Positions 18,805 to 45,864 of a stretch of DNA of 64,000 bases are shown in pieces; position 1 is the first letter of the stretch, and each line of letters begins with the position of its first letter. Origin of the DNA: Parietichytrium sp. I65-24A. Taxonomy: Eukaryota; Sar; Bigyra; Thraustochytrida; Thraustochytriidae. Location: assembly GCA_012862575.1 (NCBI GenBank), contig BLSF01000010.1, positions 620,001-684,000 on the forward strand, given 5' to 3'. The position numbers and the translations under genes are program-made. The notes beneath the pieces were generated by a model that searched no databases, had not been told where the DNA came from, and was given only the letters and a program-made list of their open reading frames with translations.

Positions 18805-21297
18805 TTACTCGTTGATGGAGTAGATGAGCCCTCGGCTTGGAGCTTCGCTGGCCAGATTGCGGATGGCAGATCCTGATCCTGATGTGGGCGAAACGTTGGT
18901 GGTCTTGCTCTTGGAAACGCCGTTGGAGTTGCTCGAATCGATGATGGCTACATAGTATAGCTTCGGGACGACCAACGAACAGACTATGGTAAGTGCGGTG
19001 ATCACGAGTCCAATAATAGAAATGAAAGTAATAGCTGCGGGCTCGCTCACAAGTCTAGAAATCCCGACAGAGAATGAGCCAAAGAACGCCAGGTTATAAA
19101 CCGCGAAAGCGATTCCTCTGGACTCGTTAAATTCGGACACAAAGTTCCTGGAAAGAAATGAAAGGACCATGGCTGCGATGATCATCAGAATTTTATCAAG
19201 CATGATGATCGCCATCCAGTAACCACTGTTTGAGGTGCAGACTGTGGTGTACTGATACGTTTCGACCCAGTGCAGCTCTGCATGCACGGGGTCCATGACT
19301 GACCAGACCAGAAGAATCGCACTTTCGTACACCAGCAGCGCGCATATGATGTAGCCGAGATGCTTGTTAGACAAGCGCAGCGCTCGGCCCTTCACGGTGT
19401 CAGAGCTGTGCTGAGAGAAAAGATAGACAATGCGGTAGGTCTTCAAAAGCAGACTACCGAATGCAATGCACCACCCAGTGCTCACAAGCCAAATTCCGAC
19501 GAGGCACATTGAGGAGAGGGTTTCGATTGATGCTCCGCTGTCCAAGTCCACAACCAAGGTGAAAGCAGAAGCGATGGATATCATTGCACCAACGATAATT
19601 AGACCCAAAAACACTGGAGAAGCTGCCTTCATTACCCTTGCCTTTCGGTACTTGAACACGAGCTTCAATTGGAAGAGGCAACACAACTCAGCGATGACTC
19701 CGAGCGCTATTCCAGCTGGCTTGGCCCAACCATTCCCGACATACACGTCCTCCTGAAACTTGATTGTGAAAGACGCTTGACCAACCGTGGAGTCCTTCAG
19801 CCCATCTTTGACGCTAAATGCATTAACAGTAAACATTCCTTCCGCCGAGAGAGTGATCGGGCCGGTGAACCTGGCGGAGTATTTTGTAGGCTGGGTTCCG
19901 TCAAGCGTGTAGTACGTTTCCGCTCCATCGGTCATACAGGTTATGTTGAAAGTGATCGCTGAGTTGTAAAATCCGCCTTCCAAGGAGAGTTTTGGCTCGG
20001 CAACCTTACCAAAATAAATTTGGCCGCGAAAAGACTCCAAGTCCTCAAGAAGGTCCAAGTAGCTTTCAGGTGCAGCAAAGAACTTGTCCAAGTTTGTGAG
20101 AAGTTTTGCGGCCATTGTGGGATTCATATCTCTGTCTATGAAATGGAAAAGCATGTCCGATGACTCCAGCATAGCCCAACCCTTCAAAGTAATCGGATCG
20201 GTGATGTACTTGGTGGCGTTTTTGTTGCTCGGAATTGCAGTTTCGTTGAGCCTTGCGACCTGATAATCCACAGATCCTAGATACTCCACTAAGCGCTCAG
20301 CGAGTGCAATATTTTTTGAGTTTTTCGAGATAAGGACGCCGTCCGATGGAGCGTCTTCACCTATTTTCAAGCTGGTATCGATGATGGGGAAGCGAAAAAA
20401 GTCTAGTTTTTGCTTGTCTTGCTCATCAAGATGTCGCCTGACAAAGTCGCCGATAAGAGAAAAGGCTGCTGTCTTGCTCAGGAGCTCGTCCTGGACAAGC
20501 GTCCACCTGTTTGCAGACGCTTTCTCGTAAGTTGGAAAGTATCCCAAGTCAATGAGCTCTTTCCATCGAAGGAACACGTTTGCAATCCGTTCATCAGTAA
20601 ATGCTATATCTCCCAAGAAAACTTGCATATGAAACTCTGGTCCGTTTACTCTCATGTTGAGATAGTCAAACCAGCCACCGAGGGGCCAGTTCTCCTTCGA
20701 TCCGATGACGATTGGTTGCACGCCATTCGCCTTTGCCAGTGCGCATGCAGCAAGAAAGTCGTCATAAGACTCTGGGATGCTAATCCCAAGTTCTTCAATG
20801 AGTTCTGCGTTGTAGTAAACACCCCAGTGATAGCTGTCCGTGGGAAGCACGTAGGGTGTGTTGTTCGCATCAGACACCATGTGAAGCGCAAGTTCGGATA
20901 TCTCTTCCGACAGCCCACTTCGATCGAGCATATCGGTCAATGGATGCACCAAGCCGGCTTCTATCAAGTTGCGAGATACTGCTCCACCAGCAAACCACCC
21001 AGCAACGTCTGGTCCGTTCTGAAGATGAAGCAGGTGTACTATATCATTTTTTTGCTGCTCCTGAGAATTCCACTTGTAAATCAACGTCAGGTTGCTATTG
21101 GCTTCCACGAACGGAGCAGTCATCTCCAAGTCCGTCTGAGCGTTTTCCCCGACAAAACTCAGGTATGTAATCGTTTCGCCCCCCGTGCAGTCCACCACGC
21201 CGGCTGCCCCGAATGTAACAGCGCTGCTGCAGAGCACCGCGATGATGACAGCAAGCGCTCCTCCATTTCGCCCGAGTCTACAGTGGCCCGGCTCCAT
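18805..21297 (-). CDS. Class C GPCR with bacterial-type sugar-binding ectodomain
   Basis: 830-residue receptor from the ATG at 21297; the longer frame starts with GTG. Order of parts: a signal peptide (about 15-33); a bacterial ABC-transporter family-1 solute-binding domain (about 42-425), with hallmarks such as HWGVYYNAELIEELG and NWPLGGWFDYLNMR; and a chitobiase/CHB_HEX-type beta domain (about 433-513), with ETYYTLDGTQPT. Seven membrane helices follow (about 527-549, 561-583, 595-618, 647-667, 692-716, 729-749, 755-778). The 7TM part is class C/GABA-B-like: loop 2 carries LLKTYRIVYLF and helix 7 ends VPKLYY. The architecture implies an outside sugar sensor coupled to G proteins. The ligand is inference; the bacterial relatives bind mono- or oligosaccharides. 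The cytosolic tail is short and Ser-rich. The gene precedes C2CD3 with about 990 bp between. Confidence 0.87.
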   Translation of the reverse strand: MEPGHCRLGRNGGALAVIIAVLCSSAVTFGAAGVVDCTGGETITYLSFVGENAQTDLEMTAPFVEANSNLTLIYKWNSQEQQKNDIVHLLHLQNGPDVAGWFAGGAVSRNLIEAGLVHPLTDMLDRSGLSEEISELALHMVSDANNTPYVLPTDSYHWGVYYNAELIEELGISIPESYDDFLAACALAKANGVQPIVIGSKENWPLGGWFDYLNMRVNGPEFHMQVFLGDIAFTDERIANVFLRWKELIDLGYFPTYEKASANRWTLVQDELLSKTAAFSLIGDFVRRHLDEQDKQKLDFFRFPIIDTSLKIGEDAPSDGVLISKNSKNIALAERLVEYLGSVDYQVARLNETAIPSNKNATKYITDPITLKGWAMLESSDMLFHFIDRDMNPTMAAKLLTNLDKFFAAPESYLDLLEDLESFRGQIYFGKVAEPKLSLEGGFYNSAITFNITCMTDGAETYYTLDGTQPTKYSARFTGPITLSAEGMFTVNAFSVKDGLKDSTVGQASFTIKFQEDVYVGNGWAKPAGIALGVIAELCCLFQLKLVFKYRKARVMKAASPVFLGLIIVGAMISIASAFTLVVDLDSGASIETLSSMCLVGIWLVSTGWCIAFGSLLLKTYRIVYLFSQHSSDTVKGRALRLSNKHLGYIICALLVYESAILLVWSVMDPVHAELHWVETYQYTTVCTSNSGYWMAIIMLDKILMIIAAMVLSFLSRNFVSEFNESRGIAFAVYNLAFFGSFSVGISRLVSEPAAITFISIIGLVITALTIVCSLVVPKLYYVAIIDSSNSNGVSKSKTTNVSPTSGSGSAIRNLASEAPSRGLIYSINE

Positions 21298-22288
21298 GCT
21301 GTACCTGCTGCTTGTGCACTGGCGCCGCGCGTCGTGCACAGTTCAGCATGCAGAAAGGAATTACTTCCCCCCACAACGAACGCAGGGAGGCATACCTTGG
21401 TACGTTTTGTGTCTGTGAGTGAAATTCCCACTTACTGTTCAACATTTTCTTATTATAGCAACGAATCAAACATTTATTCTACCAGACATCTTCTCTTGCC
21501 CCGAAGATCATCCGCCGAAACAAGTAGACATAATGTCCCGGCGGCTGGCTCTTAGTGACGACTCGCTGCTGCCTCCTGAATATGGGTTCAAAACTTGTAC
21601 CAAAGTGTCTTGAAGAAGGCTGTCTCGAAAATAGAGCACGTTTTCTGCAGCCTCACATCTACGACTATCAAGTAAGGCTGTTGGCTTGCAAACTGGCAAA
21701 GACAAACTCTTTCCAACAAAATTCTGCACCATCCCGCCTCTCATATTCGCTCCTGCTTGCATTTGCGACATTTATCGTAGCTTAGGGAGTACCTCGCGTT
21801 CGGCGAGAAGCTTTAACTTAACATTCACAAGTTCTGAATTATTTTAAGAAACAAAAAGGTCCAACTTTACAGTCAAATTAGACAATTTCGAGCTTGACTG
21901 TGAGTTCAACCAAGCACAGAGGCCGAGTCAAGTCGCCAAGGGTTCAATTTCAACAAGTGCCAACAAGGTCAAGTGAAGTTCAAGTTCCAACTCAAGAGAT
22001 GATAAGGCTCAAGGCTTGAACGCTCGCCAACGGACATAAATGCTCCCATTCAGATCGTAAAGGATGTTAGTGGGATTCGAGTAGTCTTACCGCCGCGTAG
22101 AAACTTGATCGTAGTATTCACGCAAACTGACTACGAGTGTTCGTTGACAGCACGAAACAATCGAAAGGACTCCGAGTGAGCACCGTAACCCCTTCTCCAC
22201 CACAAGCCTACAAGCTCCGCCATGTCGCAGCAGTTACCGTTGGACAACAACCTCGCCCGGGGCACGATGAGGCTGGTGAGAGGGAGGT
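21298..22288. other. Intergenic region upstream of the GPCR
   Basis: About 990 bases between the GPCR start and the C2CD3 stop, both minus. A GTAAGT donor on the minus strand near 21433 could belong to a 5'-UTR intron of the receptor gene, but no partner acceptor is convincing. Around 21880-22020 there are imprecise repeats of GTTCAA/CAAGTTC type. No other gene is seen. Confidence 0.4.
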
Positions 22289-34345: not shown

Positions 34346-37300
34346 ATGTACCGCGGGGCTCAACATCGTCTGGGAGAGGGCCACTTCGATGTACTCGTGG
34401 TCGGCGCCGGGCCGGCCGGCTCAACGTGCGCATATTACCTCGCGAACCTCGCCCGCAACGTGTACGCAGGCACGGACTTGAGGATCGGGCTGCTCGAGAA
34501 GGCGACGTTTCCGCGAGACAAATATTGCGGTGATGCATGGTGCGCCCCTGCGTTGGACATTCTCGAGGACATGGGCGTGTTGCAAGAGCTGGAGAAGGAG
34601 GGGCTGGTGCGCGACTGTCTCAGCGGCGGGTTCGTGTCGCCAGCCGGGCACAGTTTCATCGCGAACGACCGGAGCACGCCAGCGAGCGAGAAGAACATGG
34701 CCACGAGGTGCTACGCAATCAAGAGGATGATCGCGGACGAAAGGATTGCGCGGAAAGCTGCCGAGCAGCCCGGCGTTGAGCTTATCGAGAACGCATGTGT
34801 GGAGTCGACCGAGTTGGATGAGAGTATCGGAGTGTGGACTGTGTCATGCCAAAATGGACGAGTTTTCAAGTGTCGCATGCTGGTTGCAGCGGATGGTGCA
34901 GCGTCGAATATTGGGAGGTCTCTTGGAATGGTGACCAGCCCGCCACAAGGAGTCGCTGCTCGGAGGTACGTTAAGCCCGGCTCGCACAACTTCAAGGCAG
35001 ACGGTGTGTTATTGTATCCAGACTACACCTTGCCTGGGTATGTTGCGCTCTTTCGGCACTATGACAACTCTGTAGACCTCGGCCTGTACCTCCTTCCCGG
35101 TGGGGCTGCCAAGGGGTCGGATCTCCAGGACATCTACGAAAACAAATTGATGAATGATCCGTTCGTGAGCCGAGCTCTGGGTTCCAAAGTCGAGTTTTCG
35201 GAGCGCCTCAAGGTGGCTTCTCTGAGACTTGGAGGGGAGAAGAAGTCCTATGGCAATCACATCGTGCTGGTGGGCGATGCTGCCGGCCAGGTCGACCCGC
35301 TCACCGGTGAGGGAATTCACACTGGACAGATTGCCGGCCGCCTCGCCGCAAAGTCGATAGCAGAAATGTTCCGTTCTGGCGACTTTTCTGAAAAGGCTTG
35401 CAAAGTGTATCATGACCGGTGGTGGACCGAATTCGGCAAAGACTTTCCAGTCTCAGACATCGCAGGTAAAATTGTATACCGTGCCCCTTTTCTCATGGAC
35501 GCCGTCCCAAAAGCATCTTCAGCGAAGGGAGGGAAGGAAGGGTCCGACTTTTTTGCAGATTTTGGCGCCGTTATGACAGGCGTGCTTCCCAAGACTACTT
35601 TTCTTCGGCCTAGCGTTGCCGTTCCTCTCGCGGTGGAAACGGTGAAACAATTCTTCAGCCAATACGTGCTCCGCAACGAGCGCAACTACTACAGCGACCC
35701 TGCCATGTTTCTTGACCGCGAAGTGAAACGCTTGACTAGCTGGGACGCTCAGTGCTTGCTTGATCCCTCAGAGCCGGCCGCGAAAGCTGGTTCAGAAAAG
35801 CAGCAGATTGTGGAGTTGGACGAGGTCTTCCAATTTGCAAATGACTCTCGCGTGCCGGTGCTAGTCTTATATGGTTCAGAGTATGGTTTCTCGCGCGAGA
35901 TTGCAGTGCAATTCTGCGAAAAGATCTCCTCCGAGGGATGTGTTTCGCCGCGGTGCTTGAACCTGAAGCACGCGGAGGTGGTTGACTGGTCGAAAGAGCA
36001 AGTCGTATTTATAATTTGTTCCACAGCTGGCGACGGGGACCCGCCGAACGACGCGATGCCGTTCTTTGAAGCTCTTCGCAACGGCGAGCTCATCGGCCGA
36101 TTGCGCCACATTTTATTCTCTGTCCTCGCCCCAGGGGATCGAGCCTACCCGAGATTTGCGCAAGCTGGAAAAGATTTAGAATCTTTATTGAAAGCTTCAG
36201 GAGCAACATCCTGTTGCGAATTGGCCACCTTGGAATCCGACCTTCTCGAAGACGCTTCTCTCTGGTTTCAGAGTTGTGCTTTGTGGTTGTCGTCTAACAC
36301 TGTTGAGCCACCCGGTTGGCGTCCAACTTTGGAGGACTACCTGCGTGGCCAAGTGCGCGAGAATACCCACTTATTTGAAGAACATAAGCCTGGGGCCACT
36401 CGGCGACGTCCGTTCGTTGCAAAGCTGGCAAAGAAAAAGCTTCTCACATCCTTACGAAATGGCTTGAACGACAAGGAGACTTGGCACATTGAAATCGATG
36501 TTTCTGCCGATACGAGTGGGTTGATGTCTTACGCTCCCGGCGATGCGTTAGGGATCGTGCCCGTGAATAACCCAGCCCAGGTTGATTCTATACTGCGTTT
36601 GCTCGGGCGTATAAATGACACCAGCCTTCGGGCAAAGCTCATCAAGTCGGATCTCAAAAATTCTCTCGAAGATCTTAAGGCAAATCCAGACGAGCATGTA
36701 ATCGATGTCTTGGAGAGACTTGACGGGACGCAAGATTTGCAAGACGTAATCGCGAGATTGCGACCCTTGGCGCCGAGATATTACTCGATCAGCTCGTCGC
36801 CTAGAAAAGACTGTAACTTGGTTCACTTGTGCGTTGCAGCAGTACGCTACGAAACCCTTGGGCGGAAGCGAGAAGGTGTCGCTTCCACGTATCTCATCGA
36901 CCGCCTTGGCGATGGCGATGAAATCGAGGTGTGGATTCAGCGAAATCCTGCTTTTCGAAAAGCCGAGAGTGCAATTATGATAGGACCGGGGACCGGGTTA
37001 GCGCCTTTCAGAAGCTTTATTCGCGATGGGCCGTTCAAACATGCAATCCTCTTTTTTGGTTGCAGGCACAAGGACGGAGACTTTCTGTACAGTGACGAGC
37101 TTCAAAGCTGGGAGAAATCCAAGCCTCATCACATGTTGGTTACCGCATTCTCGAGAGATGGGCCGGAGAAAAACTATGTTCAGCATCGTATGCTGGAAGA
37201 GGAGAACAAGGACAAGATATGGAACATTTTGTCTCGAAAGGACGGTGCACCTGCGCAAGTTTACATTTGCGGTGAAGGCCATCACATGGCAGGGGACGTA

Positions 37301-37402
37301 AAAAAAGCACTGTACTCTATCCTGAGTGAGCGACTGCCACCGACCGAGAAACCAGAACAATATCTGCGCGATAGGCTGCATCTCGACGTGTGGGTATCGT
37401 AA
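34346..37402 (+). CDS. Geranylgeranyl-reductase-family oxidoreductase fused to a diflavin (CPR-like) reductase
   Basis: 1018-residue single-frame fusion. Residues 13-440 are a geranylgeranyl reductase family FAD enzyme: Rossmann motif DVLVVGAGPAGSTCAYYLA (15-33), FPRDKYCGDAW (55-65) and GDAAGQVDPLTGEGIHTGQ from 310. A linker of about 60 residues leads to a flavodoxin-like FMN domain (about 503-650; LYGSEYGFSREIA, STAGDGDPPND). An FAD/NADPH reductase follows: RYYSISSSP at 811 for FAD, GPGTGLAPFRSF at about 880 for NADPH, and the C-terminus LDVWVS, close to the DVWS end of cytochrome P450 reductase. NADPH electrons could thus flow through FAD and FMN to the N-terminal flavin, which in this family saturates prenyl double bonds. 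The substrate (polyprenol, geranylgeranyl lipid or other) is unknown. No plastid or ER targeting helix is obvious. It converges on exportin-4 with 233 bp between stops. Confidence 0.88.
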   Translation: MYRGAQHRLGEGHFDVLVVGAGPAGSTCAYYLANLARNVYAGTDLRIGLLEKATFPRDKYCGDAWCAPALDILEDMGVLQELEKEGLVRDCLSGGFVSPAGHSFIANDRSTPASEKNMATRCYAIKRMIADERIARKAAEQPGVELIENACVESTELDESIGVWTVSCQNGRVFKCRMLVAADGAASNIGRSLGMVTSPPQGVAARRYVKPGSHNFKADGVLLYPDYTLPGYVALFRHYDNSVDLGLYLLPGGAAKGSDLQDIYENKLMNDPFVSRALGSKVEFSERLKVASLRLGGEKKSYGNHIVLVGDAAGQVDPLTGEGIHTGQIAGRLAAKSIAEMFRSGDFSEKACKVYHDRWWTEFGKDFPVSDIAGKIVYRAPFLMDAVPKASSAKGGKEGSDFFADFGAVMTGVLPKTTFLRPSVAVPLAVETVKQFFSQYVLRNERNYYSDPAMFLDREVKRLTSWDAQCLLDPSEPAAKAGSEKQQIVELDEVFQFANDSRVPVLVLYGSEYGFSREIAVQFCEKISSEGCVSPRCLNLKHAEVVDWSKEQVVFIICSTAGDGDPPNDAMPFFEALRNGELIGRLRHILFSVLAPGDRAYPRFAQAGKDLESLLKASGATSCCELATLESDLLEDASLWFQSCALWLSSNTVEPPGWRPTLEDYLRGQVRENTHLFEEHKPGATRRRPFVAKLAKKKLLTSLRNGLNDKETWHIEIDVSADTSGLMSYAPGDALGIVPVNNPAQVDSILRLLGRINDTSLRAKLIKSDLKNSLEDLKANPDEHVIDVLERLDGTQDLQDVIARLRPLAPRYYSISSSPRKDCNLVHLCVAAVRYETLGRKREGVASTYLIDRLGDGDEIEVWIQRNPAFRKAESAIMIGPGTGLAPFRSFIRDGPFKHAILFFGCRHKDGDFLYSDELQSWEKSKPHHMLVTAFSRDGPEKNYVQHRMLEEENKDKIWNILSRKDGAPAQVYICGEGHHMAGDVKKALYSILSERLPPTEKPEQYLRDRLHLDVWVS

Positions 37403-44077: not shown

Positions 44078-45864
44078 ATGGTATTCCAAAAAGTAGCCGG
44101 CGCCAGCGCTCTGGGAGCTGACCGACAGAGGCTTCACGTGGTAAGTTTGGAGTGTTTGTGCGCGTGTTTTGGGATTTCATGTTCGGAGTTAAAAGCTAGG
44201 TTCATGGCGCAAAGCGGTAAACCGCGCAACTGTATTGGAATGGAAGCGACGCGAGGTGCTGACTGACGGGCTTGCTTGCACGTGTGGTGGCGGGACTTGG
44301 GCAGTGCGTGGAAGGCAGATATGTGAGCGTAATTCGGCACAAGGGCAAGCTCTATTGCATAGACAGCACATGTTATCACACTGGCGGACCGCTGGGAAAT
44401 GGCGACATTGAAGATGTTCAAGGCGAGGCGTGTATTACGTGCCCATGGCACATGTACCAGATCACTCTGGAGGATGGTGCCAAGTTGTACGAGTCACTCG
44501 TACCTGGGCCCAATAACAAACTTGTTCCCGGAGGGTGGAAAAAGAAGGCGCACGCGCAGCGCGTCCACGCCGTGGAAAGGCGTGACGATGGAATCTACGT
44601 TGAGCTGAATCTTGATGGCCAGTGGGACAGCGATGTTTACGGCACTTCGGCAATGTGCGGAAGCAAGCTTCAAGGCAATAGCGGCGGGCGTCAGAGACAA
44701 TCCAACGAGGGCAATATACACTCGAGATCGCCGTTTGGCGCTCCGTTGCCGCAGCGTAGCGGACACATTTTGAATCCAAATTCTCCGTATGCGAAAAACA
44801 GCGCGCCGTCGACGGGCCTCCTGAATTTAACGACGCCAGCGTCACCTGCACCTGCTCCGAAGAATTCGTTCTCGGAGGGCGAGGAGGATTCTGACGACTT
44901 TCTCGACGATGAAGAACTTGGCGACGACCGCAATCTTGCCAAAGTAAACACCTACGTGGCATTTAGAATAGACAGCATTGAAAAGGATGGCCAAAGTGGC
45001 CTACGCATGCGCCTGTCACCCAGTGATGCAGGGAGCAGAGGTGCCATTTTTCACCAGCTAACTGGGCTTGATCCAAGTCTTTCGCCGGAGAGTCACATGC
45101 AACAGGCAATGGTGGAGCCAGGCTTTCTGTTTAACACCTTTCATGTCAGTATTGGCATGGAGATTGATGGAGAGATAGTAGAGCGGCCCTTCACCCCCAT
45201 CGTGTCTGCACTGCGGATGCTGCAACAAGTGCAGAAGAAGCCGGGCGATGGGCCGGACTCAAGCTTGATAGAGTTGGCGATAAGGACGTATGAAAACGGA
45301 GCGTTGACAAGTAACTTGAGAAAACTGTATGCGAACGACATGATCTACGTCGGAAAAGGCTCCGCGGCGGCGCGCACCGTAGTAAATCCGAGCATAGTAC
45401 CACCGAGCGACTTGACAACTCTTTTCTTGTTTGCGGGGGGAAGCGGGGTGACCCCGCTTCTGCAGATTTTGCAAAATCTAATTGACGCGTATGCGATGAA
45501 CCCAGATATGCTGCAAAGCCTCTCTTCAGTCGTGTTCGTCTGTGCAAATAAGTCTGTGAATAGGGCTTTGGCGCTGGATAGGTTGGAGTCTATGTGTAAG
45601 TCTGCAGAAGGCCTAGGTTCAAAGATCCACATCCTTCACTTGCTCGGTGAAGAGCCGCCCATGGGCTTGGTCCCCGTGCACGGGGAGGTGCGGGCAAACG
45701 TGCCAATTGGTGACGAGAAGCTGTTGGAAGAGCTCGGTGTTGGGAGTGGACCTGGCCAGGTGTTTGTGTGGTGCGGCCCTCCGGGCTTCAACGAGGCCTT
45801 GCGCAAAAGCCTTTCGGAGTACTTTGACATTGCCCCTGCACAGTGCATCGAGTACGCTGGCTAG
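44078..45864 (+). CDS. Rieske [2Fe-2S] domain fused to a cytochrome-b5-reductase-type module (two exons)
   Basis: Spliced gene: exon 1 44078-44140, intron 44141-44304 (GTAAGT...GGCAG), exon 2 44305-45864, 540 residues. Without the intron the frame has no ATG because a TGA lies at 44260-44262. With it the Rieske fold is complete: KVAGASALGADRQRLHV joins CVEGRYVSVIRH. Ligands are C44-x-H46 and C67-x2-H70. A disordered Ser/Pro and acidic linker (about 135-240) leads to an FAD/NADH reductase domain: RPFTPIV (315-321) for FAD, AGGSGVTP (398-405) and CGPPGF (511-516) for the nicotinamide nucleotide. Electrons could pass from NAD(P)H via FAD to the 2Fe-2S centre and on to an unknown acceptor. The plan is like Ncb5or, with Rieske replacing cytochrome b5. 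No targeting peptide or membrane anchor is seen. Confidence 0.84.

Follow-up and report, generated by a model that had tools for sequence, protein, structure and literature searches.

Within a 64,000-nucleotide stretch of the thraustochytrid Parietichytrium sp. I65-24A (assembly GCA_012862575.1, contig BLSF01000010.1, positions 620,001 to 684,000; hereafter the window), a single gene joins a flavoenzyme domain of the geranylgeranyl reductase (GGR) superfamily to a complete diflavin reductase module. The domains are known, their combination is conserved and apparently undescribed, and the subfamily to which the protein belongs has no assigned function. On balance we favour, with reservations, a reading of the sequence in which the protein would be a self-sufficient reductase, driven by reduced nicotinamide adenine dinucleotide phosphate (NADPH), of a carbon-carbon double bond in an isoprenoid, i.e., a terpenoid, polyprenyl or sterol side chain. 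The same fusion occurs at seven bacterial loci, and both halves of the protist protein group with these bacterial fusions in phylogenetic trees.

Domain architecture of the fused gene

The open reading frame (ORF) runs from ATG to stop over 1018 codons (Table 1). Along the chain, the Pfam and NCBIfam matches follow in the order TIGR02032 (residues 14-338), flavodoxin (507-629), FAD_binding_1 (best stretch 764-849) and NAD_binding_1 (878-986). This bears out an earlier, sequence-only reading, which held that all parts of an electron chain, i.e., the domains for NADPH, flavin adenine dinucleotide (FAD), flavin mononucleotide (FMN) and the substrate flavin, lie in one frame. While every part that it listed is present, the list followed the flow of electrons, and the GGR-like part is actually N-terminal. 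The linker, which had been put at residues 440-503, was moved to about 475-502 because two standalone bacterial relatives, L046 and L047, finish with an ACLxDP segment that is found at residues about 469-474 of the window protein. By codon score this frame ranked first among the six in 23 of the 24 sliding stretches, and did so across the junction as well. Two adjacent genes were rejected as an explanation, as the junction holds no stop codon and scores as coding, and a chance or assembly join was ruled out because the complete fusion recurs in bacteria.

Table 1. Features of the fused gene, in window coordinates.
Feature	Position	Strand	Evidence
Whole ORF, GGR-like flavoenzyme and diflavin reductase	34346..37402	+	ORF; Pfam/NCBIfam domains; single full-length genome match; same architecture in bacteria
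GGR-superfamily flavoenzyme domain, residues about 12-474	34379..35767	+	TIGR02032 E 9.5e-45; 52-57% identity to the GGR parts of 7 bacterial fusions
Cys61 in PRDKxCGD, counterpart of the archaeal GGR active-site cysteine	34526..34528	+	16/16 members; aligns with CGEG-segment cysteine of 3oz2
PGYVALFR, residues 230-237, family-specific stand-in for canonical YxWxFP	35033..35056	+	PGYxA[L/F/I]FR in 16/16 members, 0/6 outgroup sequences
Inter-domain linker, residues about 475-502	35768..35851	+	Aligns poorly among fusions; downstream of L046/L047 end segment
Flavodoxin-type FMN domain, residues about 503-650	35852..36295	+	PF00258 E 5.7e-18; YGSEYG, STAGDG, PGDRAYPRF align with bacterial fusions
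FAD domain, connecting region shortened, residues about 690-849	36413..36892	+	PF00667 E 1e-24; RYYS, GVAST segments
NADPH domain, residues about 875-1018	36968..37399	+	PF00175 E 3.1e-16; GPGTG, SRxxxxKxYVQ, ICG, C-terminal DVW segments

The reductase module is complete, with FMN, FAD and NADPH segments in order and an aromatic residue near the C terminus. The best match of the C-terminal half in the PDB was 6efv, and its nearest solved relatives are the sulfite reductase flavoprotein and P450 reductase. It is 515 amino acids long, compared with 569 and 585 in two bacterial fusions (L045 and L053, respectively). Sequence identity amounts to 33-36% with the bacterial fusions, 30% with Escherichia coli CysJ and 24-32% with the diflavin enzymes native to the protist; against the CysJ equivalog the score was 306.3 bits, below the cut-off of 668.15. 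CysJ and NADPH-P450 reductase have the same complete FMN-FAD-NADPH module, which in the fusion is attached to a GGR-like domain. In P450 BM3 the catalytic domain is N-terminal and the diflavin module C-terminal. The fusion follows this plan, but its catalytic part is a flavoprotein and no P450 domain was among its Pfam matches.

Family placement of the N-terminal domain

TIGR02032 was the best NCBIfam family for the N-terminal domain (153.5 bits for the whole ORF and 156.2 for the domain alone, with a curated cut-off of 158.8) and matched 16/16 subfamily members at E 1e-10, which supports, as a best match, the earlier assignment of this part to the GGR family. The next GGR-type families, MenJ and BchP/ChlP, scored 102 and 69.4 bits against cut-offs of 700 and 343.3; we know of no fusions of either. 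The GxGxxG FAD motif is present as GAGPAG (residues 20-25), with G9, G11 and G14 of A3 invariant across the 16 members, and the GGG/GEG motif as G321-E322-G323, the glutamate being nearly invariant in the subfamily (GAG in L054). The PRDKxCGD cysteine, Cys61 of the window protein when aligned to 3oz2, is retained throughout the member alignment and is absent from three halogenases whose alignments were inspected.

All 16 members carry PGYxA(L/F/I)FR in the position of the YxWxFP of ordinary GGRs. According to PMC6309074, every GGR shown to reduce prenyl substrates has both the cysteine and YxWxFP, and PMC10821996 describes the full motif as poorly conserved in archaeal paralogues, though Y, W and F are well kept. 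The data support a place of the window domain in the GGR superfamily but not one among the proven prenyl reductases, as the cysteine is kept but YxWxFP is replaced. Relative to that motif, Ala stands for Trp and Arg for Pro, replacements that point to more space in the pocket and a positive charge on one side of it, and to a substrate that may be bulkier or more acidic than geranylgeranyl diphosphate.

The solved structures closest to the N-terminal half were FixC and halogenases in a search at the level of the single sequence, and the archaeal GGR 3oz2 ranks first (4.8e-47) only once ordinary GGRs join the subfamily profile. Despite their high rank in the structure search, FADH2-dependent halogenases were rejected: they are marked by a PR-x-H-IGES-type segment that lacks the GGR cysteine, whereas the family has PRDKxCGD. 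With the archaeal GGRs (SaGGR, 3atq; TaGGR, 3oz2), the fusion has in common the superfamily, GxGxxG, the active-site cysteine (Cys47 in SaGGR, Cys45 in TaGGR), FAD and the position of the substrate motif. It differs in that motif (YxA(L/F/I)FR in place of YxWxFP) and in having its donor attached, whereas theirs are separate proteins such as ferredoxin. The earlier statement that known GGRs rely on separate donors agrees with PMC6309074 and PMC10821996 for those enzymes with known partners.

Bacterial relatives and evolutionary history

The fusion is not confined to a protist: with seven bacterial loci (L025, L026, L027, L045, L053, L054 and L055), it belongs to a bacterial fusion family. Across 84,980 prokaryote species, short exact peptide patterns hit 24 times; three of the hits were relatives, all full fusions: L025 in a metagenome-assembled genome (MAG) labelled Geobacter sp., and L026 and L027 in Sterolibacterium MAGs. 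Their GGR parts are 54-57% identical to that of the window and their full chains 45-46%. Profile searches retrieved matches in 1/399 genomes of the order of G002 (E 1e-60), 4/249 of the family of G002 (E 1e-30), 11/377 of the phylum of G001 (E 1e-30; 12 matches), 4/79 of the order of G933 (E 1e-60), to which G001 also belongs, and 4/4 of the genus of G425, which includes the two Sterolibacterium MAGs and holds five copies. The G002-order, G002-family and G001-phylum searches were samples of larger groups with four to six candidates scored per genome, so these counts are lower bounds, and the genome sets overlap. Of those 12 matches from the G001 phylum, the ones in G929 and G763 are ordinary GGRs.

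The fusions fall in the genus that holds Sterolibacterium (all four genomes) and in two genomes of another phylum, while eight standalone members (L044 and L046-L052) are without the diflavin module. Against a profile of the GGR parts of four fusions, which themselves score high by construction, the fused members reached 717-870 bits, L046 and L047 656-676, L048-L050 about 545, L044, L051 and L052 400-417, and ordinary GGRs at most 131. Two pattern-based scans of viral contigs returned no relative. Among plasmids, 29 records matched the GGR part, none over 80% of its length (the top-ranked match was 31.7% identical over 69%, and one short match 43.2% over 16%). A Rhodococcus plasmid (L020:2914-5052) encodes a GGR-family protein extended at its C terminus by a long segment that looks by eye like a polyprenyl synthetase; its gene adjoins one for a polyprenyl synthetase, and it is perhaps a second GGR fusion.

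The tree of the GGR domain held 22 rows, including eight fused ones, and that of the reductase 13 rows, including E. coli CysJ and four diflavin enzymes of the protist; own_tandem_L005 was excluded beforehand because it overlaps, and is part of, the L008 gene. In the GGR tree the eight fused rows lie on one side of a branch with support 90/91. At their base the window forms a long end branch; L046 and L047 come immediately outside, and the remaining standalone members are more distant. In the reductase tree the eight fused rows stand together at 92/96, or 87/96 without CysJ. Joining CysJ to the bacterial fusions to the exclusion of the protist was rejected (approximately unbiased test, p-AU 0.0154), a test for which the tool cautions on long branches. 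Because both halves group with the bacterial fusions, the simplest account would be a single fusion event in bacteria followed by transfer of the whole gene, and the protist gene was probably acquired in this way.

Gene neighbourhoods in bacteria

At the fused locus L054 the order is SDR, amidohydrolase, SnoaL_4, a frame of 94 residues, the fusion, a CrtO-like beta gene, an alpha gene and a second alpha gene; at the standalone locus L047 it is SnoaL_4, the GGR-like gene, alpha and beta. The two genomes belong to different phyla, with the alpha proteins 53.6% and the beta proteins 56.5% identical. The alphas carry GFRGNTHA and the betas only its NTHA end, and GFRGNTHA fits the covalent-flavin consensus that PMC11061730 gives as common to delta24-steroid desaturase and the limonene dehydrogenase CtmAB. 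These enzymes are separate proteins and not kin of the fusion; the neighbours in L054 and L047 resemble them by this motif and the two-gene layout, not by sequence comparison. Alpha genes were surveyed in 39 genomes, of which 13 have a family member; the 26 that have none were chosen as the first-listed negatives of the G933-order and G002-family searches. With distant kin included (E 1e-20), alpha relatives occurred in 7/13 and 5/26, respectively.

Other CrtO-like adjacent pairs, possibly the published delta24-steroid desaturase, were seen at G002:C106:30644-33886, G003:C70:17750-20969 and G425:C1:2930163-2933403. They are 27-29% identical to the L054 alpha, and one gene of the G425 pair has a TAA within the match. 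An identity of the L054 alpha and beta with delta24-desaturase itself was not supported, as these other pairs fit the published subunit sizes better by eye.

At three of five loci of the Sterolibacterium group the fusion is divergent from two major facilitator superfamily (MFS) genes, which are followed by the start of narG. Four of the six MFS genes were assigned to NarK by profile, below curated cut-offs, and narG by profile for L055; the remainder were assigned by eye. The group degrades sterols independently of oxygen according to PMC7411048. Near the standalone GGR-like gene of L050 lies a fragment of a PfaA-like polyketide/polyunsaturated fatty acid synthase (L050:3-794).

Proposed function and its alternatives

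In the reading that we prefer, hydride would pass from NADPH to the FAD of the CysJ-type module, single electrons would then move from this FAD through FMN to the FAD of the GGR-like domain, and the reduced GGR-like FAD would saturate an isoprenoid carbon-carbon double bond. Such a path is expected from the general behaviour of diflavin reductases and GGRs. The path through the domains is well supported by their order and motifs, while the direction from NADPH to substrate and the isoprenoid class are what we infer, the class because of the GGR superfamily and the L054 and L047 neighbourhoods. A more specific account, which we put forward tentatively and with considerable doubt, is that of a single-chain enzyme that uses NADPH to saturate isoprenoid side chains of a bulky or acidic kind and that would have arisen by a single fusion in bacteria that degrade terpenoids or sterols without oxygen and been taken whole by the protist for use on its own lipids, with a CysJ-type donor, and not ferredoxin, fixed in the gene.

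Several observations weigh against the preferred reading. The window domain narrowly misses the TIGR02032 cut-off; it reads YVALFR at the substrate motif, where 0/16 members have YxW; and the 16-member subfamily profile finds FixC (1.4e-25) and halogenases (from 1.5e-25) ahead of 3oz2 (4e-20). Of the sequence-only label "prenyl reductase", the superfamily stood as best match, and prenyl reduction itself is an interpretation. The alpha/beta pair was assigned by its motif and by CrtO-profile matches far below cut-off, not by CtmAB or delta24-desaturase sequence, and delta24-desaturase is described in PMC11061730 as not similar to phytoene desaturases. Close alpha relatives (at least 54% identical) occur in only 3/13 member genomes (G425, the source of the query, G933 and G729) and 0/26 others; in G729 the pair and the fusion are on separate contigs, and the protist has one distant alpha match of 27%. 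The SnoaL_4 proteins of L054 and L047 are weakly alike (29% over 79 amino acids). Genes for an acyl-CoA ligase or acyl-CoA dehydrogenase, or PfaA-like ones, are found near the members in G770, G1010, G808 and G972, and one of the L-lactate dehydrogenase type is also among the neighbours of standalone members; such surroundings do not favour isoprenoids. Supports for the fused clade are below 95 in the trees, and a structure prediction from four sequences was unusable (predicted local distance difference test score 45.8).

The main rival, which we judge unlikely, is a flavin monooxygenase (hydroxylase or epoxidase) that carries its own reductase and would combine in one chain what squalene epoxidase and P450 reductase do as a pair. 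Squalene epoxidase does draw on a diflavin donor, and the UbiH-type hydroxylase profile TIGR01988 matches the window (59.6 bits) and 16/16 members; TIGR02032, however, scores far higher, and the GGR cysteine is kept in every member. No squalene-epoxidase domain is among the 15 Pfam families matched, on which ground that enzyme itself was rejected, and the divergent orientation of the fusion and nitrate-respiration genes at three loci gives a hint that the enzyme works without oxygen. We consider it improbable that the enzyme instead reduces unsaturated acyl chains of the fatty or polyketide type. Such a function would account for the acyl-CoA ligase near the L048 member and, by eye, adjoining the members in L049 and L050, for the acyl-CoA dehydrogenase and PfaA-like fragment of L050, and for the acyl-CoA dehydrogenase next to the L046 member, but L048-L050 are more distant, unfused members and the fused loci, by eye, have no such neighbour.

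Least probable is an electron-transfer hub, in which the GGR/FixC-like domain would take electrons from an enzyme like CtmAB or delta24-desaturase and the diflavin module would deliver them to NADP+ or some other carrier. In diflavin modules electrons normally come from NADPH, eight standalone members have no module, and the scarcity of close alpha genes among member genomes, together with the distant match in the protist, also speaks against it. In its favour, L054 and L047 each place a family member directly beside a pair of this type, the FixC structure 7koe tops the matches of the subfamily profile, level with one halogenase, and the acceptor of delta24-desaturase is drawn as unknown in section 11 of PMC11061730.

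We found no description of the fusion in the open-access full-text literature, subscription papers and protein-database annotations being outside this scope, and within it the earlier remark that no enzyme of such a plan has been characterised held. Outside archaea, the donor that serves many enzymes of the GGR superfamily has not, to our knowledge, been settled, and the natural fusion names a candidate, a CysJ-type diflavin module. If active, the protein could serve as a self-contained biocatalyst for isoprenoid saturation. The gene is, moreover, probably an example of a redox fusion of bacterial origin kept in single copy by a eukaryote. It also draws attention to a subfamily whose substrate motif is altered and in which two members adjoin genes of the kind used in oxygen-independent terpene and sterol breakdown.

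Setting in the protist genome

The assembly comprises 42.5 Mb in 172 contigs, with the window at C10:620001-684000. Bacterial contamination is unlikely: the contig is 767 kb long, the fusion sits among eukaryotic-type genes (ArfGAP, PDCD2, C2CD3-like and a weak exportin-like match), and the codon use of the fusion correlates at 0.81 with that of its pooled neighbours (single neighbours, themselves within the pool, 0.50-0.88). A search of the genome gave nine matches, one full-length and eight that cover parts of the reductase half; the eight fall in five other genes, provided that the three pieces on C35 belong together. By eye, these five resemble NDOR1, P450 reductase, sulfite reductase alpha, sulfite reductase beta and a tandem-flavodoxin protein, the last being a diflavin-type reductase with tandem flavodoxin domains (L005/L008, G000:C35:82515-85719). 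TIGR02032 scored 157.3 bits at the fusion gene and 61 at the next of 17 matches in the genome.

Two protist loci resemble plant DWF1 (38% and 40% identity to an approximate query sequence). Because of these loci, the fusion need not be the only sterol delta24-reductase of the protist, a role that we regard as less likely. The MFS gene upstream of the fusion had no NCBIfam match at E 1e-6, and is therefore not taken to be of the NarK type. Elsewhere in the window, a class C G-protein-coupled receptor (7tm_3) at 18805-21339 on the reverse strand is preceded by domains like a bacterial solute-binding protein and a chitobiase C terminus, and a frame at 44272-45864 on the forward strand combines a soluble Rieske-type ferredoxin domain with a weakly matching NAD-binding reductase domain and a weak NirD match.

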